NCBI RefSeq assembly: GCF_004151485.1
Contig: NZ_SBFF01000007.1
Location: 186,001-250,000, forward strand
Origin: Sphingosinicella sp. CPCC 101087
GTDB taxonomy: Bacteria; Pseudomonadota; Alphaproteobacteria; Sphingomonadales; Sphingomonadaceae
DNA: 64,000 nucleotides
Reading direction: 5' to 3'
Shown here piece by piece: positions 3,812 through 20,341 of this stretch. Position numbers and translations under genes: made by a program. The notes under the pieces are model-generated. The model saw nothing but the letters and a program-made list of their open reading frames with translations. It ran no database searches and was not told the DNA's origin. Each line of letters opens with the position of its first letter. Position 1 is the first letter of the stretch.

Positions 3812-5800
3812 TCAGTGCCCGCCGAAGCGCAGCCGCACGCCGGCGTTCAGGACGAAGCCTTCCGTCGGCGCCCACACGTCCACGGTCCACCGCCCGTCCG
3901 GCGCGCGCCGCGGCAGGAGGAGCGGATCGTAGCGCGTCTGGCGGACGCCGAGGATGTTCTCCGCATTGGCGAACAGGCTGACCTTGCCGAGCACGATCTC
4001 GCCAAGAATGCCGAGATGGAGATAGGGGCGGCTCTCGGAACGATAGGGGTTATCCTCCAGCGACTGGCGGCCGGTATAATAGGCCTCGATCCCGATGCGG
4101 CCCTTCCCATGCTCCTCCCACATTGCCACCGCGCCGGCCGTGTGGCGGGGCGTCAGGGGAACCGGCCTGCGGCCTTCGCCGAGCTCGGCCGGCTCGGTCG
4201 CATCGACATAGACATAGCTGCCGGTGACCGAGAAGGCGTTCCATCGATAGCGCAGCAGAAGCTCGGACCCGCGTATCCGCGTCTCACCTTCGACGTTCAC
4301 CAGCCGGACGCGGTCCGCCGCGACCGGCTCCAGACGCGTGGCATTGTCGATATTGGAAGCGAAGAAGGTGACGCTCCCCTCGAGCGGCCCGCGTGCATAG
4401 CCGATGTCGAGCGACCCGGTTTCGGCCGTCTCGGCCTCGAGGCCGGTCAAGGGCTCCAGCCGGGACAGACCGGCGGCCTCGATCTCCTCGACGAAGGGCG
4501 TGGGCGCATAGAAGCCCCGTCCGACCGAGGCGCGGATCGTCCAGGGCCCGGGCCGGTAGAGCGCCGACAGGCGCGGGCTCAGCTGCGATCCATATTCGCC
4601 GTGGACATCGAGCCGCGCGCTTGCCGCCAAGGTCAAATCGGAGCGCAGATCATGCTCCACCTGCGCGAACGCGCCGGGAACGTCATGCGTGTAGTCGAAG
4701 ACGGGAAAGGCCTCCGAACGGAAGCTGTCGGACTGGAATGCCATGCCTGCGACCCATGAGGTCGCATCCGAGCGTCCGGCCAGCGAGGCTTCCGCGAAAA
4801 GCGTGCCGTGGCGGTCCTCCTCGACGGCATCGCCGAACCGATGCCGATGGTCCTGCGTCATTCCGGATGCGCGCAGGTGCAAGGCCCCGAGCCTCTCGAC
4901 CGGAAACTCGGCGACCAGCCCCGCGTCGAGGCGGTCGGTGTTCTGCGCCTGCGCAAAGGGCCGGCCGTCCGGAGCGGTGCGGCCGCGAAGCGTGCCTCCT
5001 TGGCGCTCTTCCGTCATGGCTCCTGCAGTGACGAACGCCGAAGCGCCGTTTCCGCCCTGCCAGAACAGGCGCGGGCGGGCCGTCCACCGCCCGTAGAAGG
5101 GGATGTCGAGCCAGCCGTCGCCGTCGAGGTCGTGACGGCTCTGCCGGTGCGCGCCGCCGGTGATCGAACCGCTCCAGCCATTGCCCAGCGGCGAGGCGAG
5201 ATAGGCGGTCAGGTCCTGCCCGTCCCGGGTCGTCGCATTGGCGAGGACTTCGCCTTCGACCTCCTCCCCGGGCCGCCGCGAGACGAGGTTGATCACGCCG
5301 CCCAGCGCCGACGGCCCATAAAGGGCGGACGCGGCTCCCTTGATGACTTCGACCTGGCCGAGATCGGTGGGCGGGATCTGAAGGAGGCCGATCGACGAGG
5401 CCTGTCCGCCGTACAGCGGCAGTCCGTCGGCGAGAAGCTGCGTGTAGCGGCCCTCCATGCCCTGGACCCGGATATTCGCAGCGCCCAGAGCGGGGGAGGT
5501 GACCTGGACGCGCACGCCGCCAGTTTCGTTGACGAGCATGGCGATATTGCCCGGCCGCATCAGCAGCTTCTCCTCGATCTCCTCGCGAACGATCACCTCG
5601 ACCCGGATCGGCTCGTCCTGCACCCGCCGGCGCGAGCGCGTGCCCTGGACGATGATGTCGTCCTGCTCTTCTTCTTCCGCTTCCTCCTCATGCGCCTGCG
5701 CGGTGGCGGCCGGCGCCTGCGCCAGCACCGCCGAAGCGAAGGGGAGGGAGGCCAGGAGGGAAATGGAGCCGAGCGAGGCGATGGACACGGCACTGTTCAT
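3812..5800 (-). CDS. TonB-dependent outer-membrane receptor
   Basis: Imports an unknown ligand across the outer membrane using TonB energy. From the ATG at 5800 the protein is 662 residues with a signal peptide (MNSAVSIASLGS..., cleavage around ASAVLAQ), then a very acidic stretch, a DDIIVQGTR segment like a TonB box, a plug domain including VEVIKGAASALYGPSALGG, and a C-terminal beta-barrel ending in LRLRFGGH. It has no STN signalling domain, unlike the receptor at 17972. An upstream ATG at 5839 would add 13 residues before the signal peptide and is less likely. No siderophore or cobalamin genes are adjacent and I found no cobalamin riboswitch upstream, so the substrate stays open. Confidence 0.88.
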   Translation of the reverse strand: MNSAVSIASLGSISLLASLPFASAVLAQAPAATAQAHEEEAEEEEQDDIIVQGTRSRRRVQDEPIRVEVIVREEIEEKLLMRPGNIAMLVNETGGVRVQVTSPALGAANIRVQGMEGRYTQLLADGLPLYGGQASSIGLLQIPPTDLGQVEVIKGAASALYGPSALGGVINLVSRRPGEEVEGEVLANATTRDGQDLTAYLASPLGNGWSGSITGGAHRQSRHDLDGDGWLDIPFYGRWTARPRLFWQGGNGASAFVTAGAMTEERQGGTLRGRTAPDGRPFAQAQNTDRLDAGLVAEFPVERLGALHLRASGMTQDHRHRFGDAVEEDRHGTLFAEASLAGRSDATSWVAGMAFQSDSFRSEAFPVFDYTHDVPGAFAQVEHDLRSDLTLAASARLDVHGEYGSQLSPRLSALYRPGPWTIRASVGRGFYAPTPFVEEIEAAGLSRLEPLTGLEAETAETGSLDIGYARGPLEGSVTFFASNIDNATRLEPVAADRVRLVNVEGETRIRGSELLLRYRWNAFSVTGSYVYVDATEPAELGEGRRPVPLTPRHTAGAVAMWEEHGKGRIGIEAYYTGRQSLEDNPYRSESRPYLHLGILGEIVLGKVSLFANAENILGVRQTRYDPLLLPRRAPDGRWTVDVWAPTEGFVLNAGVRLRFGGH

Positions 5801-6232
5801 GGGACGAATGACGCTGTTCTCTTCTCTGATCGAAGGCAAGGCGGCCGCCCTGAAGACGGCACGACGATGATTGCCCTGTCATCGGGCGGGCCGAAGCAGG
5901 GTCCGCGAACCTGCCGAAGCCCGCCACGCGAATGCCTGATGTTCTGCCGGCCGCGGGTCAATACCGAGATCGTCGGAATGGAAGCGACGAATGACCGAAT
6001 CGTGCCCAGGGGGTTCGACGCGGAAGCGCCGGCGCTCGGGTTCCCGGAGCCGCGCCGAAGGCGAGCGAACATGGGAAGAGGCGGGCGCAACCCGCAGCCG
6101 GGACCAGAAAGGAGCGGCGGGCCGGCACCATCATCATGAAGGCTGCCGCAACGGTCAGGGTCGCGGCAGCGCCCCGACCGGCACGGGATTCTCCTCGCGG
6201 GCTGGAGCCGGGTTCGATGGGCAGCGAGGTCC
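5801..6232. other. Intergenic region, nothing recognised
   Basis: The space between the TonB receptor and the DUF885 gene (both on the minus strand) must hold the receptor promoter. I looked for cobalamin-riboswitch boxes and Fur-like inverted repeats on the minus strand and saw none that convinced me. Open frames here lack domain features and look like chance frames in GC-rich DNA. Confidence 0.5.
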
Positions 6233-8068
6233 CTAGGCCGGCGCGGCGATCCAGCGTTCCACCTGGGCTTCGAGCACGGGCAGCGGAACGGACCCCTGGC
6301 CCAGCACCATGTCGTGGAACCGCTTCTGGTCGTAGCGGGCGCCCAAGGCGGTTTTCGCGCGATCGCGGAGCGCCAGGATGTGCTGCATGCCCACCTTGTA
6401 GGACGTCGCCTGTCCGGGATTCACGAAATAGCGGCGGATCTCCGAACGGATCTTGCCGATCGGCTGTGGCGAGTTGGCGGTGTAGAATTCCAGGGCCTGA
6501 GCCTCGCTCCAGCCCTTGGCGTGGATGCCGGTGTCGACCACCAGCCGGATCGCCCGCCAGATCTCCCGGCCGAGCCGCCCGAAATCGCTGTGGGGATCCG
6601 TGTAGAACCCCATCTCCTTCGCCAGCCGCTCCACATAGAGTCCCCAGCCCTCGCCATAGGCGCCGTAGAACGTGTGGTTTCGGAACTGCGGCTGGCCGGT
6701 CATTTCCTGGGCCAGCGCAATCTGCATGTGATGGCCGGGCCAGCCTTCGTGATAGGAGGTTCCCTCGATCTCGTAGAGGGGCGTCGCCCGCGTGTCGGCC
6801 AAGTGCACATAGTAGATGCCTGGCCGCGAGCCGTCGGGAGCGCTCGACGAATAATGGGCGGCCCCGCCGGGCTCCTCGCGGAACGACTCCACGCGCCGAA
6901 CGACGAGCTCTGCCCTGGGAATCCGCCCGAACTGCTCGGGAAGCCGCGCCTTCATTCCGGCAAGATAGCCTTCCGCCAGCCGCAGATATTCCGCCCGGCC
7001 GGCATCGTCGTTGCTCACGTAGAAGCGGTCGCCCTCGCGCAAGTGGACGAAGAATTCCTCCAGTGGCCCGGCAAAGCCGATGGTCGCCTTCAGCGTCTCC
7101 ATCTCGCCGCGGATCCGCCGGACCTCCGAAAGGCCGAGTTCGTGGATCGCGTCCGCGGTCATGCCGGTGGTGGTCTGAAGGCGAAGCATCGCATTGTAAT
7201 AATTGGCGCCATCGGGCAGCGATCCGGCACCGCGCGGCTCGGCGCTGGCCTGCTCGCGGTCCGATCCCAGCCAGGCGCCAAGCCGTTCGTATGCCGGCTT
7301 CATCGAACCGGTCATCGCTTCGGCGACGCCGGCGAGAAGCCGCCGCTCCCCCGCCTCGTCGATCTTGCCCGCACTTCGCAACGCCGCCGCCTTGGTCCTG
7401 GCGTCGGCGAACAGCGCGGAATTGGCGCCACCGTCGAACGGCGCCCCGGTGATGAGCCGCTGCGCCTCCTCCAGCGACTGATCATAAGCGAAGCGGGGCA
7501 TGCGTATGCCGGCGGCCGCGGCCGCTTTCGCCCGCTCGAGATAGATGTCGATCGTCGGACCGAGGGCCGCCACGCGCTTGGCATAGGCCTCCATGTCCGC
7601 CGGCTCGTCCACCCGGTGCTGGTTGATCAGGAAATTGGGAAGACCGGTATGGGGGCCGCCCCGGTCGAAGATGTAGGCGTGCTTGCGCCATTGCGCGTAG
7701 GTCTCGGCCCGCTCGAGCTCGAGCGCCCACATCTCGTAGGAAACCCGGGCATTCTCGCTGAGCGTCGCGGGGTCGAACCGTTGCCGCATCTCCGCGACGC
7801 TGCGCCTGCGCCAGGCCAGGCGTTCTGCCGCGGCGGCGTCGCTGGGGTCGGTGAGCTGATCCTGCTTGTCCTTGCGGCCCAGTTGCGTGAGCTGCTCCGG
7901 ATCCTGTTGAAGCTCGGCCTCGAACGCCGCGTCCAGGAAAGCCGTCAATTCCGCATCGGCCGTCGCGGCGCCAACCGCAGCCGCCGGGCGTCCTTGCGCC
8001 CGCGCCGTCGAGGCCGCCACCAGGCCCGCAGCCATTCCCAGCCCGAAATCGCGTCGTGAAAATCGCAC
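6233..8068 (-). CDS. DUF885 family protein, putative exported metallopeptidase-like hydrolase
   Basis: About 611 residues from the GTG at 8068. The N-terminus carries a twin-arginine signal (RFSRRDFGLG followed by a hydrophobic stretch and ARAQ), so export to the periplasm by Tat is likely. The DUF885 hallmark YHEGWPGHHMQ lies near residue 440, within a sequence that looks like a zinc-binding HExxGH-like helix, and the C-terminal part (VGMQHILALRDRAKTALG) also fits the family. Members have been linked to peptide or ester hydrolysis, but the reaction is not settled. The GTG has a good ribosome site (GGAGA); an in-frame ATG at 8092 is an alternative that lengthens the n-region by eight residues. 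It stands alone. Confidence 0.85.
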   Translation of the reverse strand: MRFSRRDFGLGMAAGLVAASTARAQGRPAAAVGAATADAELTAFLDAAFEAELQQDPEQLTQLGRKDKQDQLTDPSDAAAAERLAWRRRSVAEMRQRFDPATLSENARVSYEMWALELERAETYAQWRKHAYIFDRGGPHTGLPNFLINQHRVDEPADMEAYAKRVAALGPTIDIYLERAKAAAAAGIRMPRFAYDQSLEEAQRLITGAPFDGGANSALFADARTKAAALRSAGKIDEAGERRLLAGVAEAMTGSMKPAYERLGAWLGSDREQASAEPRGAGSLPDGANYYNAMLRLQTTTGMTADAIHELGLSEVRRIRGEMETLKATIGFAGPLEEFFVHLREGDRFYVSNDDAGRAEYLRLAEGYLAGMKARLPEQFGRIPRAELVVRRVESFREEPGGAAHYSSSAPDGSRPGIYYVHLADTRATPLYEIEGTSYHEGWPGHHMQIALAQEMTGQPQFRNHTFYGAYGEGWGLYVERLAKEMGFYTDPHSDFGRLGREIWRAIRLVVDTGIHAKGWSEAQALEFYTANSPQPIGKIRSEIRRYFVNPGQATSYKVGMQHILALRDRAKTALGARYDQKRFHDMVLGQGSVPLPVLEAQVERWIAAPA

Positions 8069-8251
8069 AGCAGCTCTCCATTCTTCCGGCATCTTCGCCT
8101 CTTCGCGGGACGATCTTAGCGCGTCGTCCCGTCCGGATCGACTCGCTGCGCGAAAATCGATCGGCGGCCTTCAATCGGTGCCCGCACGGCGCATTCCGTG
8201 GACGAGGCAGGGCAGGGGCCTCACCGTCCGCGCCACCGACGACTCGGTTCA

Positions 8252-9589
8252 CTATTCGACCTCATGATGCTCCATGCCCTCCCCGATCATATCGCGCAGC
8301 GTTTGCAGCGCCGATCCGAGGGCTTCAAGGCCGGGCGAGCCCAACGCCAGGCGGACGGCGCCAGGCGCGTAGCCTGGACTCACCGCAAAAGCCTCTCCCG
8401 GGGTAACCGCAATGCCCCGGCGCAGCGCCTGGGCTGCAAAGCTTTCCCCGCGCCACGGCTCGGGCAGGGGCAACCATGCGTGGAGCGCACGCGAGTCCGC
8501 GCAAAGTCTGTCAGCACCGAGGATCTCACGGGCGAGCGCCTGGCGCGCCAGAGCGTCGGCCCGTTTGCGCTCCATGACGATTTGCGCATCTCCGCTGTTC
8601 ATCCAGTGGCATCCGAGCGCGACGGAGGCGCCGGCTGCCGACCAGGCACCCGCACGTAACGTGACTGACAGGGACTGGACGAGGGATCGGGGTGCGACGA
8701 GCAGGCCCACCGTCAGGCCCGGCGATACCCGCTTCGAAAGGCTGTCCACATAGATGACCTGGTCCGGGGCAAGTGCCGCCAGGGGGAGGACCTCCGGCGC
8801 AAGGAAGGTGTAGATGCCATCTTCGATGGCCATTATTCCGGTATCCGTCAGCAGACGTGCCCATTCCCGGCGGCGCAGATCGGACATCGAAACGCCGAGC
8901 GGACTGTGGAGCGTCGGTTGAAAATAGACTGCGGAAAGTCTCGTCGACTGGTGCGCTTCACGAGCGGCCTCGGCAGAGACCCCTTGCTCGTCGAGGTCCA
9001 GCGGCACGAGCGTCACGCCGAGTCGCTCGGCTATCCCTTTCACGACCGGATAGGTGATCGCCTCTATGCCCACGCGCTCGCCCGGCTTCGCCAGCGTCGA
9101 CAGGGCAGCGGCGATCGCCTGCCGCCCGTTTCCCGCGAACAGGATCTTCGCCGGGTCCGGCAGCCACTTTGCCCTGGCCAGGAAGGCCGCGGCTATCTCC
9201 CGGAATTGCGGCGTACCTGCGACGCTGATCGGGCGTAGCGCGGCTTCGGAGGATGGCGAAGCCGCCCAGCGCCGCAGGCTCGAACGCAGCAGCGCTTCGC
9301 AGCCCTCCGGCCATGAAGCTACCAACTCGAGATCGATCAGTCCGACGGAAGGATCGACGAGAGGCGGATCGGTTCGGGGCGGCGCGTTGAGCACGAACGT
9401 CCCTCGACCGATCTCCCCCGCGGTCAATCCGCGCCGCTTGAGCTCCCGATAGACGCGGGCCGCGGTGGAAGGTGCGATGCCGCGCCGATAGGCGAACTCG
9501 CGCAGCGGAAGCAGCTTTTGACCGGACCGCAGAGCGCCCCCTGCGATTTCGCCAGCGATTTCGTCCGCTATGGATTTGAAGTCGGGCAT
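8252..9589 (-). CDS. MocR-type transcriptional regulator (GntR HTH fused to aminotransferase fold)
   Basis: 445 residues from the ATG at 9589. The first 70 residues are a GntR winged helix (GIAPSTAARVYRELKRRG and GRGTFVL); the rest is a fold-type I aminotransferase domain with the PLP lysine in DSLSKRVSPG (Lys286). MocR proteins such as GabR and PdxR bind direct repeats in the control region of a divergent target and respond to PLP or an amino-compound aldimine. Here the divergent neighbour is the DinB-SDR operon, and a four-copy repeat array lies in the 90-bp gap, which makes that operon the likely target. The effector cannot be read from the sequence. Confidence 0.9.
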   Translation of the reverse strand: MPDFKSIADEIAGEIAGGALRSGQKLLPLREFAYRRGIAPSTAARVYRELKRRGLTAGEIGRGTFVLNAPPRTDPPLVDPSVGLIDLELVASWPEGCEALLRSSLRRWAASPSSEAALRPISVAGTPQFREIAAAFLARAKWLPDPAKILFAGNGRQAIAAALSTLAKPGERVGIEAITYPVVKGIAERLGVTLVPLDLDEQGVSAEAAREAHQSTRLSAVYFQPTLHSPLGVSMSDLRRREWARLLTDTGIMAIEDGIYTFLAPEVLPLAALAPDQVIYVDSLSKRVSPGLTVGLLVAPRSLVQSLSVTLRAGAWSAAGASVALGCHWMNSGDAQIVMERKRADALARQALAREILGADRLCADSRALHAWLPLPEPWRGESFAAQALRRGIAVTPGEAFAVSPGYAPGAVRLALGSPGLEALGSALQTLRDMIGEGMEHHEVE

Positions 9590-9598
9590 AACGTCCAA

Positions 9599-9663
9599 AT
9601 TGCACCGAGTACAATAAAGCTATTGCACCGACATGCATCGAACGCAATTGAACTTTGCATCGA
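9599..9663. promoter_or_regulatory. Candidate MocR operator: four copies of a 9-bp direct repeat
   Basis: The motif TTGCAYCGA, all on the plus strand, occurs at 9600-9608 and 9623-9631 (TTGCACCGA, both preceded by A), 9633-9641 (ATGCATCGA) and 9655-9663 (TTGCATCGA). Spacings are 23, 10 and 22 bp, so copies lie on nearly the same helix face. A -10-like TACAAT (plus, 9610-9615), read on the minus strand as TATTGT, sits between the first two copies. The array fills the gap between the MocR gene and the DinB operon. Direct repeats are the known binding pattern of MocR regulators; binding here is inferred. Confidence 0.6.
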
Positions 9664-9679
9664 AACTCGGAGGCGCCCG

Positions 9680-10231
9680 ATGTCACCAACGTCCAGACGA
9701 TCCCCAACCCCGAGATTGGCCCCTCTGAGCATGCTGCTTCGATTCAAGGCCTGGGCGAACGACATCACCTTCGCCACGGTCGCGGCCCTGCCGGAAGGGG
9801 AGGCCTTGCGCCCCCGTGCAACACGATATCGAAACATCGTTCACACGCTCAATCACGCGTTTGTCGTGGAGGAGATATTCCGCGCGCATCTCACTGGCGG
9901 TCGCCACGGCTATGCCAGCCGGAATACGGAGGTGACGCCGCCACTCCACGCGCTTCGCCGCAACGTCCAAGCCATGGACGCCTGGTATATCCATTATGCG
10001 GAATCGCTCGGCGAGGCCGAACTCGACGAGATCATCCACTTCGAATTCGTTGGCGGTGGGAATGGGGCGATGAGCCGGGAAGCAATCCTCTTCCACTTGG
10101 TGAACCACGGCACCTATCATCGAGGATTCGTCGGCGACATGCTGAATCAAAGCGGCATTACACCGAACCCCACCGATCTGACGGTCTACCTCCGGGACGT
10201 CGTCGGCGCGCGAGCGGGAGTCACGCCATGA
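9680..10231 (+). CDS. DinB-family protein, putative metal-dependent enzyme
   Basis: 183 residues, a four-helix DinB/YfiT fold. The likely metal triad is His59 (TLNH), His143 and His147 (NHGTYHRGFVGDML), the signature end of the family. Some DinB-like proteins are thiol transferases, many have no known activity. The start at the ATG 9680 has GGAG 8 bp upstream; the open frame extends further back without homology. The stop overlaps the next gene by 4 bp (ATGA), so DinB and the SDR are co-translated. Divergent from the MocR regulator and probably controlled by it. Confidence 0.88.
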   Translation: MSPTSRRSPTPRLAPLSMLLRFKAWANDITFATVAALPEGEALRPRATRYRNIVHTLNHAFVVEEIFRAHLTGGRHGYASRNTEVTPPLHALRRNVQAMDAWYIHYAESLGEAELDEIIHFEFVGGGNGAMSREAILFHLVNHGTYHRGFVGDMLNQSGITPNPTDLTVYLRDVVGARAGVTP

Positions 10232-12073: not shown

Positions 12074-13003
12074 ATGAGCGCTTCCCGCAACGCGATCGTC
12101 CTGCCGCCGCCTCTGGGAGGCTGGGTGGACAATTTCGCGGCGGACCTATTCTCCCCGCAGGAAGGCCCGACCTTCGATTTCACGAGCCCGGCCGGCGAGC
12201 CGGCGCTCATCCCGGCGGATTCCGTTTCCTGGCGCGTGTTCAGGAACCCGGTCACCTTGTTCATCGGGGGCGTGACCGCCGTCCTGCTCGAACTGGCCGA
12301 GCCGCGCGTGCGCGACGGCGTCTGGCAGAATAGTTCCTTCCGCACCGAGCCGATGGGGCGGCTTCAGCGCACGGGGCTGGCCGCCATGGCAACCGTGTAC
12401 GGCGCGCGCAGCCGTGCCGAAGCGATGATCGCGGGCGTGGGCCGCCTGCACGCGCAGGTGGCCGGCCGAACCAGCGAGGGTCAGGCCTATCGGGCCGACG
12501 ATCCCGAACTGCTCGACTGGGTACAGGCGACCGCCAGCTTCGGCTTCCTTTCGGCCTATTCGGCCTATGCCCGCCGCCTGTCGGACGCCGAGCTCGACCA
12601 AGCCTATGCCGAAGGGGCGGTGCCGGCCCGGCTCTACGGCGCCGACGGCGCGCCGACCTCCCGTGCCGAGATCGAGGCGCTCTTCGATGCAATGCGCGGC
12701 CGGCTCGTTCCGTCGCCGATCGTCTTCGAGTTCCTCGACATCATGCGGACGGTGCCGGCGCTTCCCGCTCCGGCGAGGCCCGTGCAGCGGCTCCTGCTCA
12801 AGGCGGCGGTGGGGATTCTTCCCCTGTGGGTGCGCCATCGGCTGGGCCTCGGTGCGGATTGGGGCCTGAGGGGCTGGGAGCGGCGACTCGTCCGGCTGCT
12901 GGGCGGAAGCGGCGAGCGGCTGCTGATCCGCGCCTCACCGGCAGTGCAGGCTTGCCGCCGGCTCGGACTTCCCGACGATTATCTGTGGACGAGATCGCGC
13001 TGA
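12074..13003 (+). CDS. Oxygenase MpaB/DUF2236 family protein
   Basis: 309 residues. VSWRVFRNPVTLFIGGVTAVLLELAEP and the following run of helices (DGVWQNSSF, RLQRTGLAAMATVYG, VGRLHAQVAGRT) match DUF2236 proteins, related to latex-clearing protein Lcp and the fungal MpaB oxygenase, which hold a b-type haem. His in VGRLHAQV is a candidate haem ligand or base. A GGAGG-type ribosome site precedes the ATG. It lies 40 bp before the Clp1-like gene on the same strand, so it may share a transcript, although I see no functional link. Substrate unknown. Confidence 0.8.
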   Translation: MSASRNAIVLPPPLGGWVDNFAADLFSPQEGPTFDFTSPAGEPALIPADSVSWRVFRNPVTLFIGGVTAVLLELAEPRVRDGVWQNSSFRTEPMGRLQRTGLAAMATVYGARSRAEAMIAGVGRLHAQVAGRTSEGQAYRADDPELLDWVQATASFGFLSAYSAYARRLSDAELDQAYAEGAVPARLYGADGAPTSRAEIEALFDAMRGRLVPSPIVFEFLDIMRTVPALPAPARPVQRLLLKAAVGILPLWVRHRLGLGADWGLRGWERRLVRLLGGSGERLLIRASPAVQACRRLGLPDDYLWTRSR

Positions 13004-13043: not shown

Positions 13044-13898
13044 ATGGACGAGCCCGGCCTGCATCTTCCGCCCCCTTGGGAATCGGCGCTGCTTCGGGGC
13101 ACCGCCGCGCGCCGGCTCGTGGTGCTCGGGCCGACCGACGTGGGCAAAAGCCGCTTCATCGACGCCCTGGCGGCGCGCCGGCCGGACGCCTGGCTGGTCG
13201 ATCTCGATCCAGGCCAGAAGATGATCGGTGCGCCGGGAACCGCCGCGCTCGGCAGGCACGGCGGCGCGATGCCGGAGCGGTTCGTCTTCCTCGGAAGCAC
13301 CGCGGTCGGGAGCTTCCGGGCGCTCGCGGCCGCGGGCGCCGAACTCGCCGCCTCCACCGGCCCTGACCCCGTCATCGTCAATACGCCCGGCCACGTCGCC
13401 GGTGCGGGCGCGCGGCTCCAGGCGATGATCCTCGCCGCGCTGGATCCGGACCTCGTGGTGGCGATCGGGGCAGGGCGGCCGCTCGAGGCCGAGCTTGCCC
13501 GCTTGCCCGCATTGGACAGGATCGCGATCGAGCCGTCGCCCTTCGCCCGACGCAAGACGAAAGGGCTGCGCCGGGCGGTGCGGCAGGCCGGCTTCGCGGC
13601 GGCGCTGGCGGACGCCGGACAATGGTCGCTCTCCCTGGGCCGGGTGGGGTTCGAGCCGGGGGCGCCGCAGCCAACAACTGGAACCGCCCGAGCGGTGTGC
13701 GCCCTTGCCGACGAGGAAGGCGAAGCGATGGAGATTGCGATCTTGATCGCCAAGGATGCGGATCGGGGCACCTTCCTGTCGCGCCCGCCGGTTCGCCCGC
13801 CCGCGCGGATCCTGCTCGGAAAGATGTGGGCGCAGCCGTCCGAGTCCGGATGGATCCTGCAGGAACGGCTCGCGCCGTCCTGGGAGGAAGCGCCCTGA
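13044..13898 (+). CDS. Clp1/Grc3-type P-loop polynucleotide 5'-kinase-like protein
   Basis: 284 residues. The features of the Clp1_P family occur in order: Walker A GPTDVGKS (29-36), the clasp/Walker B region DLDPGQ followed by APGT (53-66), LGSTAVGS (83-90) and NTPGHVAGAGARL (113-125), nearly the same as NTPGWVxGxG in eukaryotic Nol9/Grc3. These enzymes phosphorylate the 5'-OH of RNA and act in tRNA splicing and rRNA processing. The C-terminal 100 residues are variable and may bind RNA. The next gene, two bases further, encodes an RNase Z-like nuclease, which supports a role in RNA end processing. No clear ribosome site precedes the ATG. Confidence 0.82.
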   Translation: MDEPGLHLPPPWESALLRGTAARRLVVLGPTDVGKSRFIDALAARRPDAWLVDLDPGQKMIGAPGTAALGRHGGAMPERFVFLGSTAVGSFRALAAAGAELAASTGPDPVIVNTPGHVAGAGARLQAMILAALDPDLVVAIGAGRPLEAELARLPALDRIAIEPSPFARRKTKGLRRAVRQAGFAAALADAGQWSLSLGRVGFEPGAPQPTTGTARAVCALADEEGEAMEIAILIAKDADRGTFLSRPPVRPPARILLGKMWAQPSESGWILQERLAPSWEEAP

Positions 13899-13899
13899 A

Positions 13900-14889
13900 A
13901 TGCGTCCGAACCTCCATCCGCGCCTGGTCAACGGCCGTTTCGGCGATCCCGGCTTGTTCGTCGAGATGCTGCACCGGCGCGAGGCTTTGCTGTTCGACCT
14001 GGGCGACCTTTCGCCGCTTTCGACGCGCGACCTGCTGCGAGTCGGCCATGTCTTCGTGACCCACATGCACATGGATCATTTCATCGGATTCGACGCGCTG
14101 CTGCGGGTGTCTGTCGGACGCCAGAAGACGATCCGCATGGTCGGCCCGCGCGGCTTCGCCGATCGGGTGCACCACAAGCTTCTTGCCTATGAATGGGACC
14201 TGGTCGATCGCTACGAAGCCGACCTGGTGTTCGAGACGACCGAAATGCTCGCGCACAAGCGGACCCGTCGCGCGCGTTTTCGTTTCAAGCGCGCCTTCGC
14301 CCGGGAGGATCTCGATGAGGCCGAGGCGCCCGACGGGATCGTCGCCGCCGGAGACGGATTTACGGTGCATGCGAGCCTGCTCGAGCATCATGGACCATGC
14401 CTGGGCTTCGCCGTGGCCGAGCCGGAGCATGCCAATGTCTGGAAGGTGCGCCTGACCGAGCGGGGCCTGCCGACCGGACCATGGCTTCAGGCCCTGAAGC
14501 GGGCGGTCGGGCAAGGAAGAAGCGGCGACTGGCCGATCGCCCTGCCCGACGGGACCAACGTCCCGCTCGGCCGGCTTCGCGACCTCGTCACCCTGAGCGA
14601 GGGACAGAAGATTGCCTATGTCACCGACGTCGGCGACACGCCTGCGAACCGCGCCGCCATCGTCCGGCTGGCGCGAGGGGCGGATCTAATGTTCATCGAA
14701 GCGAGCTTCGCCGCGTCGGATGCCGATCGGGCGCGGGCACGCGCCCATCTCACCACCCGCGCCGCCGGGGAGATCGCCCGCACGGCCGGCGTCCGCCGGG
14801 TCGAGCCGTTTCATTTCTCGCCGCGCTACGAGGGAGAAGAGGCGCGCTTGCTGGCCGAGGTGGAGGGGGCGTTCCGGGGGGAGGCGTGA
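13900..14889 (+). CDS. RNase Z-like metallo-beta-lactamase-fold nuclease
   Basis: 329 residues. The zinc motif HMHMDH (His55, His57, Asp59, His60), a central TDVGDT, and the C-terminal HLTT and HFSPRY motifs are those of the RNase Z/ElaC group; HFSxRY in particular is diagnostic. FIEASF matches the conserved strand before it. The middle (about 120-250) is longer and more divergent than in E. coli RNase Z and I do not see a clear flexible arm, so it may not be the housekeeping tRNA 3' endonuclease. It starts one base after the Clp1-like stop with GGAGG upstream, so the two are co-expressed. Together they look like a dedicated RNA-processing or repair pair. Confidence 0.82.
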   Translation: MRPNLHPRLVNGRFGDPGLFVEMLHRREALLFDLGDLSPLSTRDLLRVGHVFVTHMHMDHFIGFDALLRVSVGRQKTIRMVGPRGFADRVHHKLLAYEWDLVDRYEADLVFETTEMLAHKRTRRARFRFKRAFAREDLDEAEAPDGIVAAGDGFTVHASLLEHHGPCLGFAVAEPEHANVWKVRLTERGLPTGPWLQALKRAVGQGRSGDWPIALPDGTNVPLGRLRDLVTLSEGQKIAYVTDVGDTPANRAAIVRLARGADLMFIEASFAASDADRARARAHLTTRAAGEIARTAGVRRVEPFHFSPRYEGEEARLLAEVEGAFRGEA

Positions 14890-16290: not shown

Positions 16291-16472
16291 TGTGAATCGG
16301 GGACCCGCTCACCCTGACGACACCGGCGCGGCAAACCCGCATTCGCCCCCCTGCTCAGACGAATCGAACGGACTGGTGGACAGTCGACAGGGGCCGCCTT
16401 ATCCTCGCCGCCTCTCCTCATTCTGACGGGAAAGTGGCGGCGGTCGGCGCATTCAGCATGGCCAGGGGATCA

Positions 16473-16988
16473 ATGACGGGCACCGGCCTGGAGGCCGTGT
16501 TTCTGAACCACCGCGCGCCGCTGCTGCGGTTCCTGCGCGCGCGGGGCGCCGGCGATTCGGCCGAGGACCTGTTGCAGGAGCTGTGGATCAAGGCAGCCGC
16601 GGGCGCCTCCGGCCCGATCGCCGAGCCGCTCGCTTATCTTTACCGCACCGCGAACAATCTGATGCTCGATCGGCGGCGCTCGGAACTGCGCAGCGCCCGG
16701 CGCGACCAGGACTGGACCGACGTCACGGGCGGCGCGGTCACCGGCGTGTCGGACGCGCCTTCCGGCGAGCGGGTGCTGATCGCCCGCGAGCGGCTAGAGG
16801 CGGCCGAGACGGCCCTGAAGGCGCTCGGCGAGCGGACCGAACATGTCTTCCGCCGCTTCCGGGTGGAAGGCGTCAGCCAGCGCGAGATCGCCGACGAGCT
16901 GGGAATCAGCCTCAGCGCCGTCGAGAAGCATCTCCAGAAGGCCTATCGGGCGCTCATCGAGGTCAGGAGGCGGCTCGATGCGGAATGA
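16473..16988 (+). CDS. ECF sigma factor, FecI-type
   Basis: 171 residues from the ATG at 16473 (in-frame starts at 16434 and 16458 are less likely). Region 2 includes LLQELWIKAA and PLAYLYRTANNLMLDRRRSE; region 4 includes FRRFRVEGVSQREIADELGISLSAVEKHLQKAYRAL, a typical sigma-70 region 4 HTH. FecI-type factors are activated when a TonB receptor with an STN domain signals through FecR. The next two genes are exactly FecR and such a receptor, so this is the cytoplasmic end of the cascade. Its targets probably include its own operon. Confidence 0.9.
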   Translation: MTGTGLEAVFLNHRAPLLRFLRARGAGDSAEDLLQELWIKAAAGASGPIAEPLAYLYRTANNLMLDRRRSELRSARRDQDWTDVTGGAVTGVSDAPSGERVLIARERLEAAETALKALGERTEHVFRRFRVEGVSQREIADELGISLSAVEKHLQKAYRALIEVRRRLDAE

Positions 16989-17024
16989 GAAAGCCGGCGG
17001 CGTCATGGCACAGAGGTGGCATTG

Positions 17025-17963
17025 ATGCAGGGGACGAAGGAACGTATCGAGGAGGAGGCGATCGGCTGGGTCGTGCGGCTGCGCGATGCCGGGCCGGAGG
17101 AATGGGAGGCGTTCACCGCCTGGCTCGAGGCCGATCCCGTCCATGCCGCCGCTTATGAGGAAATGGCCCTGGCCGACGAGGATTGGGGAGGGCTCGGCCG
17201 CGCCGCGCCTTCGCCGGCGCCGGCACGCCTCGTGCGCGAAGCTCCGCCGCAGCGGCGCTGGGCATCGCGGCGGACGTTCCTCGGCGGGGCGATCGCCGCC
17301 GCCTTGGTCGGAATGATCGGCTATGGCGCCATCGGGCCGGGCGACTCCGCTTATGCCGTCGCGACCGGTGCCGGCGAGCGCCGCACCGTCACGCTGGCGG
17401 ACGGCAGCCGCATCGATCTCAACGGCGACACGCGGCTGATGCTGGACCGCGAGCGGCCGCGTTTCGCGCGAATCGAGCAAGGCGAGGCCTTGTTCACCGT
17501 CGTCCACGACGAGGCACGACCGTTCGAGGTGGCCGCGGGCGACGACCTGCTGCGCGACATGGGCACCGTGTTCAACGTGGAGCGCGATCCCGGCCTGCTC
17601 GAGGTCGGAGTCGCGGAAGGGGCGGTCGTCTTCAATCCCGACGCGGAAGCGGTTGCGATCGACCCGGGAATGGTTCTCCGGCACCGGCCCGGACAGGCGC
17701 CCGAGCTGCTCCGCCGCGAGCCGGAAGCCGTCACCGGGTGGCGGGACGGACGGCTGATTTACGCCTCGGCAACCGTCGGCGAAGTCGCCGCCGACCTCTC
17801 CCGCAATCTCGGCGTCCCGATCGCCGCCGCCCCGGAAGTGTCACGGCGCGCCTTCACCGGCGTGATCGTGCTCGAACGGGAGCCAGCAGGCGCGATCGAC
17901 CAGGCCGCCCTCGTGCTCGGAGTCGGGGCGCAGCGCTCCGGCGACGGCTGGATCCTGAAGTAA
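17025..17963 (+). CDS. FecR-type transmembrane anti-sigma/sigma regulator
   Basis: 312 residues from the ATG at 17025 (AGAGG 8 bp upstream). Domains: cytoplasmic DUF4880 (EEAIGWVVRLRD, WLEADPVHAAAYEEM, residues 8-50), a membrane segment after RRTFLGGAIAA (about 80-105), the periplasmic FecR domain (GERRTVTLADGSRIDLNGDTRL and RPFEVAAGDDLLRDMGTVFNV, about 115-200) and a C-terminal STN-like subdomain (GEVAADLSRNLGVPI). It relays the receptor signal to the sigma factor encoded just before it. The TonB receptor starts 8 bp after its stop. Confidence 0.92.
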   Translation: MQGTKERIEEEAIGWVVRLRDAGPEEWEAFTAWLEADPVHAAAYEEMALADEDWGGLGRAAPSPAPARLVREAPPQRRWASRRTFLGGAIAAALVGMIGYGAIGPGDSAYAVATGAGERRTVTLADGSRIDLNGDTRLMLDRERPRFARIEQGEALFTVVHDEARPFEVAAGDDLLRDMGTVFNVERDPGLLEVGVAEGAVVFNPDAEAVAIDPGMVLRHRPGQAPELLRREPEAVTGWRDGRLIYASATVGEVAADLSRNLGVPIAAAPEVSRRAFTGVIVLEREPAGAIDQAALVLGVGAQRSGDGWILK

Positions 17964-17971
17964 AGGAGCCG

Positions 17972-20341
17972 GTGAGACTCGCCACGACCTCGATCGCGGC
18001 CGCGGTTGCGCTGTCCCTGACATCGGCTGCCGAAGCCGCCGGGCGCCATCGGCTCGACCTGCCGGGCGGGCGGCTGGGCGACGCTATCGTCGCGCTCGGG
18101 CGCCAGGCGGGAGTCAGCATCGGCGTCTCCGATCCGCAGCTCGCCGCCGAGCCGGTTCCGGCCGTCCGAGGCCACCTCACCGTCGAGCAGGCGCTGCGGC
18201 GGATGCTCGACAGGAGCCGCGCCCGCTTCGTCGCGGTAGACGGCCGGACCTTTCGCATCGTCGCCCGTCCGGCGCGCATCGCCGGGCGACGGTCGGACCG
18301 CCCCGCGGCGCCTTCGGCTGGTCCGCCGCCACCGCCGCTCGTGCTCGACGAGGCGATCGTCGTCACCGGAACGCGGCGGCCGGTGCGGCTCTCATCCTAT
18401 TCCGGCGGCGCCTATATCGTCGGTGGGGAGGATCCCGAGCTTCGGCAGGGCTTGCGGGGCAGCGATGCCCTTGTGTCGCGCCTGCCGGTGGTCGCGTCGA
18501 CGCATCTCGGCCCCGGGCGCAACAAATTGTTCATCCGCGGGATCGCCGATTCGAGCTTCAGCGGATCGATCCAGGCGACCACCGGCCAGTATCTCGGAGA
18601 GACGCGGCTCAACTATAACGCGCCGGACCCCGACCTGCGTCTCTACGACGTCGAACGGATCGAAATCCTGCAGGGGCCGCAAGGGACGCTCTACGGCGCC
18701 GGATCGCTGGGCGGGATCATCCGCGTCATGCCCAACGCACCGCGCACCGACCGGGTGGAGGGCACGGTGTCGCTGGGCGCTTCGCTGACCCAGCATGGCG
18801 ACCCGGGTGCCGACGGTGCGGCGATGCTGAACCTGCCGCTGGTCGACGACCGGATCGGTTTTCGGGCCGTCGCTTATGCGTCGACGGAGGGCGGCTATGT
18901 CGACGATGCCGGCCGCAAGCTCGAGGACGTGAATCGGGTCCGGATCCAGGGCGGCCGGGCGGCGCTTCGGCTGGAATCGGAGGGCGGATGGACGGTGGAC
19001 TTCGGTACCGCCGCCCAGCGGATCAGGGGCGAGGACGGCCAGTACGCGGACCGCGATGCGCCGCCGCTGACTCGCGAGAGCGCCATCGCGCAGCCGTTCC
19101 GGAGCGACTATCTCCTCGGCGACGTCACGATCCGCAAGGATTGGGGCGAGGTCAGCTTCGTCAGCTCGCTGGGCCTGGTCAGGCAGAAGATCGAGGAAAC
19201 CTACGATTCGACCGTCTTCGGAGGCGATCCGCGGGTCTTCATCCAGGAGAATGAGACCACCCTCATCGCGGCCGAGAGCCGGCTGTCGGGAACCGGCGGG
19301 CCGCTGGTCGACTGGGTCATCGGCACCAGCCTTGTGAGCAACGAGACGCAGCATCGGCGCCAGTTCGGCCCTGTCGCCGGGCCGGAGCTTCTGCCCGGCG
19401 TGACCAACGAGGTGCGCGAGGCGGCAGCGTTCGGCGAGGCGCGCGTCGCGCTAGCGCCGGGGATCACCTTCACCGGGGGCGGACGGCTCGCCCATGCGCT
19501 CGTCTCCGGCGCCTCGCTCGGGGAATTCAGGCTCGTGCTGGAGCCGCTCAGCGGCCCCAAGGCGGACCGCAGCCAGACCGTCTTCCTGCCTTCGGCCGGT
19601 TTGGCTGCCGAGATCAATCCGCGGCTGAGCCTGTTCGCGCGCTATCAGGAGAGCTTCCGCCCCGGCGGCCTGGCCGTCTCGGGCGATTTCATCCGGCGCT
19701 TCCGAAGCGACGACGTTGCGACCCTCGAAGCTGGGATACGCTACGGCCAGCCGGGCCGCGGACGGTTCGACGCCTCGGCCTCCGTCGCCTATACGCGCTG
19801 GAGCGATATCCAGGCCGACACGGTGACGATCGAGGGCTTCCCGACCACCGCCAATATCGGCGACGGGCGAATCTATTCGCTGGACATGCGGATCGGATGG
19901 CGGCCGCTGTCCGGACTCGAGCTCGAAGCCGCCGCGCTGCTGAACGACAGCCGGGTCAGCAACCCGGCGCCCAGCATCGTGATCTCGCCCAATTTTCCGC
20001 TTCCCAACGTGGCCGACTTCACCGGGCGGCTCGGCGCCGAATATCATGCCGCTTTGGCCGACCGGCTCGACCTCAGCCTGTCCGCCGCGGCACGCTATGT
20101 CGGCGAATCGGTGCTCGGCGTCGGGCCCGTGCTGGGAGAGGAGCAGGGCGAATATGTCGACGTGAGCCTCGGCGCCCGCCTCGACCGTGGCCCGCATTCG
20201 CTTTCGCTCACCGTCACCAACCTTCTCGACGAGGTCGGCAACCGCTTCGCGGTCGGATCGCCTTTCACCCTGATCGAGCAGAGGCAGATCACGCCGCTGC
20301 GGCCGCGAACCGTACGTCTGGGCTGGCAGCTCAGATTCTAA
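17972..20341 (+). CDS. TonB-dependent transducer with STN domain
   Basis: 789 residues from the GTG at 17972 (AGGAG site). A signal peptide (ALSLTSAAEAA) is followed by an STN signalling domain (LPGGRLGDAIVALGRQAGVSI ... RMLDRSRARF, about 28-90), a Pro-rich linker, a TonB-box-like DEAIVVTGTR, the plug (FIRGIADSSFSGS, VERIEILQGPQGTLYGAGSLGG) and a barrel ending in VRLGWQLRF. The STN domain contacts FecR, so ligand binding outside the cell both drives uptake and switches on the sigma factor. The ligand is unknown; no transporter or catabolic genes are nearby to indicate it. Confidence 0.92.
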   Translation: MRLATTSIAAAVALSLTSAAEAAGRHRLDLPGGRLGDAIVALGRQAGVSIGVSDPQLAAEPVPAVRGHLTVEQALRRMLDRSRARFVAVDGRTFRIVARPARIAGRRSDRPAAPSAGPPPPPLVLDEAIVVTGTRRPVRLSSYSGGAYIVGGEDPELRQGLRGSDALVSRLPVVASTHLGPGRNKLFIRGIADSSFSGSIQATTGQYLGETRLNYNAPDPDLRLYDVERIEILQGPQGTLYGAGSLGGIIRVMPNAPRTDRVEGTVSLGASLTQHGDPGADGAAMLNLPLVDDRIGFRAVAYASTEGGYVDDAGRKLEDVNRVRIQGGRAALRLESEGGWTVDFGTAAQRIRGEDGQYADRDAPPLTRESAIAQPFRSDYLLGDVTIRKDWGEVSFVSSLGLVRQKIEETYDSTVFGGDPRVFIQENETTLIAAESRLSGTGGPLVDWVIGTSLVSNETQHRRQFGPVAGPELLPGVTNEVREAAAFGEARVALAPGITFTGGGRLAHALVSGASLGEFRLVLEPLSGPKADRSQTVFLPSAGLAAEINPRLSLFARYQESFRPGGLAVSGDFIRRFRSDDVATLEAGIRYGQPGRGRFDASASVAYTRWSDIQADTVTIEGFPTTANIGDGRIYSLDMRIGWRPLSGLELEAAALLNDSRVSNPAPSIVISPNFPLPNVADFTGRLGAEYHAALADRLDLSLSAAARYVGESVLGVGPVLGEEQGEYVDVSLGARLDRGPHSLSLTVTNLLDEVGNRFAVGSPFTLIEQRQITPLRPRTVRLGWQLRF

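Follow-up and report, generated by a model that had tools for sequence, protein, structure and literature searches.

Why should a gene for a Clp1/Grc3-type kinase lie one base upstream of a gene for an RNase Z-like hydrolase in a sphingomonad? The two genes were found in the window, i.e. the whole stretch of 64,000 nucleotides of Sphingosinicella sp. CPCC 101087 DNA that was analysed, and a preliminary description of these letters had seen in them a dedicated RNA end-processing or repair pair. The reading preferred here, which we hold with a probability of about one half, is that the two genes form one functional unit, a nuclease-kinase RNA end-processing machine that most likely heals breaks, chiefly in tRNA. 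The locus comprises the following features.

12074..13003, + strand: MpaB/Lcp-type oxygenase gene upstream of the pair (PF09995, E 3.2e-55)
13044..13898, + strand: Clp1/Grc3-family polynucleotide 5'-hydroxyl kinase-like gene, 284 aa, with a CLP1_P match
13128..13151, + strand: Walker A motif GPTDVGKS in the translation, kinase residues 29-36, aligning with 'GPTDVGKS' of Clp1
13900..14889, + strand: RNase Z-like metallo-beta-lactamase-fold (MBL) hydrolase gene of the PRK02126 subfamily, 329 aa
14062..14079, + strand: zinc-binding motif II HMHMDH, nuclease residues 55-60, with H55, H57, D59 and H60 invariant in 38 rows
14464..14481, + strand: GP motif GLPTGP of the flexible arm, nuclease residues 189-194, placed by the GxPxGP definition given in PMC3161902 and by alignment with ELAC1 and RNase Z
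14812..14829, + strand: C-terminal HFSPRY, nuclease residues 305-310, with H305, S307, P308, R309 and Y310 invariant in 38 rows

As the preliminary description had noted, a single base (13899) separates the kinase stop codon from the nuclease ATG. The ORF listing allows a longer start for the nuclease (13756); the start was put at the ATG at 13900 because most homologues align from the same residue. The MpaB/Lcp-type oxygenase gene is regarded as a neighbour, and we do not count it in the kinase-nuclease system. Downstream of the pair, positions 16434-20341 hold a row of ORFs that were named by eye as sigma factor-like, FecR-like and TonB receptor-like.

The assignment of the 284-aa product to the Clp1/Grc3-type kinases, already made in the preliminary description, is supported by family and by fold. 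Indeed, the product matches the Pfam domain CLP1_P with 60 bits for a cut-off of 26.6 (E 3.5e-16; profile positions 1-180 of 188), and the Pfam search found no other Clp1 domain in it. Compared by sequence with the PDB, it retrieves human and C. elegans Clp1 as the top two (E about 0.001), followed by two unrelated chains and then by two Grc3-type chains. Its structure was modelled with AlphaFold2 from an input of three sequences only, and confidence in the model is modest (mean pLDDT 54.7; pTM 0.58; ten-residue pLDDT means of 53-85 across residues 11-140 and below 50 across residues 187-284). The first 21 PDB entries that Foldseek ranks for this model are all Clp1, Las1-Grc3 or LAS1L-NOL9 entries, and SRP GTPases enter the list at rank 22 (E 0.016). 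The translation contains the GPTDVGKS, DLDPGQ and NTPGHVAGAGARL motifs that had been reported. Furthermore, the likeness to Clp1/Grc3/Nol9 kinases extends to the Walker A motif, the Walker B-like DLDPGQ region (DxDPGQ), the clasp and the lid-like stretch SPFARRKTKGLRR, which align with human and C. elegans Clp1, the lid by sequence alignment alone. The clasp, NTPGHVAGAG, keeps its glycines and differs from that of Clp1 by an H in place of W; linkage or fusion of kinases of this type to an RNase Z-like enzyme is a second difference from the Clp1/Grc3/Nol9 kinases. In its small size, the protein resembles the bacterial Clp1 of Thermus scotoductus, which phosphorylates RNA according to the sections of PMC6777427 devoted to it, and by analogy the window's kinase would have RNA 5'-OH kinase activity.

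The 329-aa product is likewise supported as RNase Z-like, as had been proposed, by family and, through a fused homologue, by fold. It scores 382.9 bits against the NCBIfam model PRK02126 (NF002558; labelled 'ribonuclease Z'; cut-off 315), which is the only ribonuclease Z model that it passes, and when compared by sequence with the PDB it finds ELAC1 first (6.3e-15), the RNases Z of B. subtilis and E. coli being also among the best. The HMHMDH, HLTT and HFSPRY motifs noted earlier are all in its translation. In an alignment of 38 rows, drawn from the 80 nuclease loci fetched, the zinc-site residues H55, H57, D59, H60, H163, D243 and H305, which by analogy would be the zinc ligands, are invariant, as is H283, and E267 is kept at 90% or more. 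The catalytic residues of both predicted enzymes, as far as alignments and models tell, are intact. The RNase Z fold was assigned through the MBL half of L122, a relative in which kinase and nuclease are fused. The model of this fusion has pLDDT values above 90 over most of the MBL half, with a poor kinase half; it is best matched by two complexes of RNase Z with tRNA(Thr) (TM 0.76-0.77 by target), and the 50 matches listed include no Clp1 entry.

The protein thus shares with RNase Z, RNase BN and ELAC1 (the short form of tRNase Z) the fold, via L122, the zinc ligands, the HxSPRY end and GxPxGP. Unlike them, it remains far below true RNase Z cut-offs (114.1 bits against TIGR02651, for a cut-off of 292.95), lacks an exact PxKxRN, and in the alignment with solved RNase Z relatives reads IEAS at the HEAT position and HLT at the HST position. 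These are marks of the tRNase Z family, which PMC3161902, in the part that defines them, gives as a flexible arm with GxPxGP, PxKxRN, HEAT and HST. The preliminary description had seen no clear RNase Z flexible arm in the nuclease, and this must be corrected, GLPTGP conforming to GxPxGP at residues 189-194, in the position of the arm. In the alignment with solved relatives, it falls opposite the GP stretch of human ELAC1 and of B. subtilis RNase Z; its residues G193, W195 and K200 are the same in all 38 rows, and the first P varies among homologues.

The arm motif also bears on an explanation in terms of nucleotide salvage or signal turnover, in which small cyclic nucleotides would be hydrolysed by the MBL protein, the P-loop protein acting as a nucleoside or nucleotide kinase. 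The nuclease does reach 51.3 bits with a cyclic-nucleotide phosphodiesterase model whose cut-off is 400, and two MBL-fold structural matches of the L122 fusion model are titled as AMP- or GMP-bound. The presence of the arm GP motif, the RNase Z-tRNA complexes that are the best folds of the same fusion model, and a kinase for which no nucleotide kinase family exceeds its cut-off in Pfam or NCBIfam nevertheless make this explanation quite unlikely.

The N-terminal region of the nuclease is of interest for the choice of substrate. PxKxRN is linked in the relevant part of PMC3161902 to inhibition by CCA, i.e. CCA anti-determination, and no exact PxKxRN occurs in nuclease residues 1-48. The TIGR02651 match of the nuclease, too, begins only at profile position 49. 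This absence is softened by a PRLVN stretch in the region, whose N11 is invariant in the 38 rows, and by a fused relative that matches from position 24. With no exact motif, the nuclease may not be stopped by CCA. CCA is encoded by all five credible tRNA genes (among 7 ARAGORN matches) in 800 kb of host sequence, so that ordinary 3'-trailer cutting is not obviously needed there. A second, housekeeping RNase Z, which the preliminary description had suggested looking for elsewhere in the genome, was not recovered with TIGR02651, the model run over the whole genome: the sole match in the host genome (E<=1e-5) is the window nuclease itself, below the cut-off.

Do the two genes belong together? The preliminary description had made this depend on conserved adjacency in relatives, and in such a simple form adjacency is not conserved. 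Among the 80 loci that bear a nuclease relative (the best 80 of 94 confirmed, some of which stop at contig edges), only L049 and L122 have a linked kinase; the kinase profile behind this count was made of eight rows, one of which (L126, wrong strand) is not a kinase. At L049, the kinase and nuclease genes overlap by one base. At L122, from Ectothiorhodospiraceae, they are fused in one ORF (4038-5963). The word 'fused' used in the preliminary description therefore does not apply to the window, where there are two genes, and does apply elsewhere. Five complete single-ORF fusions were found (L122/L129, L140, L142, L141 and L228), together with a sixth, L188 in genome G231, in which the nuclease frame runs back into the C-terminal part of a kinase until the contig start truncates it. 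The fusion ORFs measure 641 aa in G201, 641 aa in G290, 795 aa in G510 (with a long upstream start) and 679 aa in G903, the last one (L228) having been met in a search of the phylum of a Geobacter MAG. In every fusion, the kinase is N-terminal and the MBL domain C-terminal, which is the gene order of the window, and the fusions are spread over several families and two phyla. As the two enzymes are one polypeptide in these other lineages, kinase and nuclease belong together, which establishes their pairing at the level of sequence. The 'dedicated pair' of the preliminary description is thereby upheld as a joint occurrence, its role in RNA end processing or repair remaining at the stage of inference.

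The frequency of this association was estimated in a sample of 398 genomes spread over the window's phylum, the set being presumably the same for the kinase and nuclease searches. The nuclease was found in 11 of them (E<=1e-30), of which 7 lie over the PRK02126 cut-off. The four fused nucleases among the 11 score 263-277 bits, under this cut-off of 315, so that fused MBL halves are relatives rather than certified members of PRK02126. CLP1_P was found in four genomes (E<=1e-6), namely in the operon of the window and in the fusions of G201, G290 and G510. With G231, which carries the contig-cut fusion, as a fifth kinase genome, the kinase is linked to the nuclease in 5/5 cases in this sample. 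For four linked kinases out of four, the hypergeometric chance is 3.2e-7; counting related genomes together as three lineages raises it to 1.6e-5. The absences in the genome searches are soft, as only part of the first-look candidates was scored by the profile searches: at most eight (CLP1_P), six, or five (nuclease) per genome.

These data weigh on the view that the two genes are chance neighbours in the window's genome. Adjacency of separate genes in one relative only (L049) would fit it, as would the nearest relative, which has no kinase at the locus. The fusions across several families and two phyla, with the 5/5 linkage in the 398-genome sample, make it highly improbable. Chance adjacency is largely refuted by the fusions.

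The linkage is nevertheless far from general. At 78 of the 80 nuclease loci (best 80 of 94, some ending at contig edges), no linked kinase was found. Among 26 genomes picked for the nuclease, CLP1_P exceeds its cut-off in four, the kinase being linked in two and unlinked in the two others, G525 and G533, where kinase and nuclease lie on different contigs. In the second phylum, that of the Geobacter MAG, CLP1_P is present in 45/297 genomes, in one of them as a fusion. No such nuclease was detected in the flanks of 34 stand-alone kinases of this phylum, which extended to 1.5 kb at most, or to about 5 kb in 11 cases, and were shorter near contig ends; a fusion would not fit into the frames of the other ten (278-407 aa). 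Many bacterial Clp1 proteins thus work without such a nuclease nearby, and most such nucleases do without a linked kinase.

In the window's order, CLP1_P over cut-off was found in one genome out of 147, the window's own; the corresponding counts are 2/78 in the order of G201 and 1/145 in the order of G510. CLP1_P-type kinases occur in 0.9% of bacterial complete genomes, as given in the survey part of PMC6777427. The share of 45/297 in the phylum of the Geobacter MAG can be compared with this 0.9%.

The phylogenies suggest how the pairing came about. In a kinase tree of 43 sequences, the five complete fused kinases group together (100/100), a second clade (99/96) holds those of the window, L049, L143 and L144, and the remaining 34 sequences are stand-alone kinases; this tree has long branches and 12 of its 40 inner branches open, and both it and the nuclease tree are midpoint-rooted. 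In the nuclease tree (58 sequences), the six fused nucleases group in one clade (100/100), and those of the window and L049 sit among unlinked sphingomonad nucleases. Since the fusions and the operon fall in separate well-supported clades, the pairing probably arose twice; the simplest reading of these trees is that two kinase subfamilies probably joined related nucleases independently. In the nearest relative of the host, Sphingosinicella terrae (L046, 4061-5966), the MpaB/Lcp gene stops 10 bases before the nuclease start with no kinase in between, and CLP1_P was not found at E<=1e-3 in the genome (G523). The kinase was therefore cleanly gained or lost in this group.

The fused kinases are also a long-stemmed clade in the kinase tree, as might be expected if the P-loop protein were no kinase and served the nuclease as an ATP- or GTP-driven regulator or targeting subunit. 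The H that replaces the clasp W of Clp1 in the window protein could be read in the same way, as could yeast Clp1, which lacks kinase activity (stated in the part of PMC6777427 that treats it). Such a role seems unlikely for a protein whose Walker A, DLDPGQ region, clasp glycines and lid-like stretch are retained and align with Clp1, all the more so as the small Thermus Clp1 is active in the assays described in PMC6777427 even though its lid is less well conserved.

If both proteins are enzymes, what could they do together? RNase Z products have a 3'-OH and a 5'-P, as described in the pertinent passage of PMC9181182. RNase Z thus already leaves a 5'-P, and a 5'-kinase is not needed after its own cut; the kinase being superfluous there, it should act on breaks that other enzymes make in RNA. 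In the end-healing mechanism preferred here, the substrate would be RNA, chiefly tRNA, cut by other enzymes that leave a 5'-OH and a 2',3'-cyclic phosphate. The kinase would add a phosphate to the 5'-OH end, and the RNase Z-like hydrolase would trim or clean the 3' end of the tRNA-type RNA, restoring a 3'-OH. The healed 5'-P and 3'-OH ends would suit an ATP-dependent ligase, CCA addition or turnover; in the window's host, they may pass to CCA addition or decay. From the families, the arm motif and the repeated linkage and fusion, we infer the chemistry at the 3' end, a tRNA substrate and a function in repair. End healing is favoured because the closest solved relative of the nuclease by sequence is ELAC1, and because, of the five fusion carriers searched, four have an ATP-dependent RNA ligase. 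ELAC1 is itself said, in the title of a paper, to act in the repair of cleaved tRNAs.

An ATP-dependent RNA ligase joins a 5'-P to a 3'-OH, according to the corresponding section of PMC9014305. The ligase family PF09414 was sought in nine kinase-bearing genomes, including five of the six fusion carriers (G201, G290, G548, G231 and G510). The four carriers with an RNA ligase (a raw count) are G201, G290, G548 and G231. In G201 and G290, which belong to one genus, and in G548, the ligase is of the TIGR01209 type (L221, L222 and L223) and lies away from the fusion, in the vicinity of a gene for an RNA ligase partner (TIGR03875). A PF09414 RNA ligase is present in G231, and G510 has a sub-threshold PF09414 match only. 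Among the control genomes, 6/14 have PF09414 matches. In the host genome, the only PF09414 match is sub-threshold and corresponds to the LigD DNA ligase; therefore, sealing is not supported in the window's genome. A fuller scheme, heal-and-seal tRNA repair, can be proposed tentatively: a two-headed Clp1-RNase Z enzyme would heal 5'-OH and 2',3'-cyclic phosphate ends, a Pab1020-family ligase would seal them in some fusion-bearing genomes, the pairing would have evolved at least twice (as fusion and as operon), and the RNase Z half would have lost the CCA guard motif and so would work on CCA-bearing tRNA.

The pair could also serve RNA decay, as a machine resembling Las1-Grc3 in which the kinase phosphorylates 5'-OH fragments, RNase J destroys them and the MBL protein removes structured 3' parts. 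The Las1-Grc3 and 'nuclease-kinase machinery' entries among the best folds of the kinase are in line with such a machine, as are an RNase J-like gene recognized by eye from its translation in the host genome and the lack of a PF09414 match above cut-off in this genome. It is made less likely by the 5'-P that RNase Z-type cuts already give, for which the nuclease would not need a kinase, and by the RNA ligases of four of the five fusion carriers searched.

Compared with known systems, the pair proposed here to heal RNA ends resembles Las1-Grc3 (LAS1L-NOL9) in that a Clp1-family kinase is paired with an RNA nuclease, physical joining being a trait of the fused polypeptides of other genomes. Las1 is a metal-independent HEPN nuclease, whereas the partner in the window is an RNase Z-type metallo-hydrolase. 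By analogy with T4 Pnkp and the bacterial Pnkp-Hen1, one unit would heal both 5' and 3' ends; the kinase and 3'-end domains of these systems are not known to be related to those of the window pair. PMC6777427 catalogues the Clp1-family kinases of bacteria and describes the activity of one of them; its main text contains neither 'lactamase' nor 'RNase Z'. No biological role or partner of these kinases was found in the parts of the literature consulted. Among the matches listed, the open-access literature gave no account of a Clp1-RNase Z fusion or operon, and the name PRK02126 was not found in the open-access literature searched. Both families are known; what we rate as new is the nuclease that joins the kinase in a proposed RNA machine of the nuclease-kinase kind. 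The RNase Z-like fusion offers a concrete partner for bacterial Clp1-family kinases. Should the pair heal tRNA, it would represent a novel type of RNA repair enzyme; should it supply a decay pathway instead, bacteria would have their own equivalent of the nuclease-kinase machines of eukaryotes.

Two neighbourhoods met during this analysis deserve mention. In Sphingomonas deserti (L143, G525:C2), an unlinked Clp1-type kinase gene (7764-8600, - strand) is divergent from genes at 8685-10185 (+ strand) that encode a nucleotidyltransferase-like protein and a calcineurin-like phosphoesterase, which hints at another RNA-repair-like set. In eleven loci, mostly from Desulfobacterales (L063, L070, L072, L076, L083, L085, L090, L094, L103, L105 and L113), a gene for a small conserved protein of about 148 aa precedes the nuclease gene, and a RecJ-like gene lies farther upstream in nine of the eleven, the names having been given by eye.
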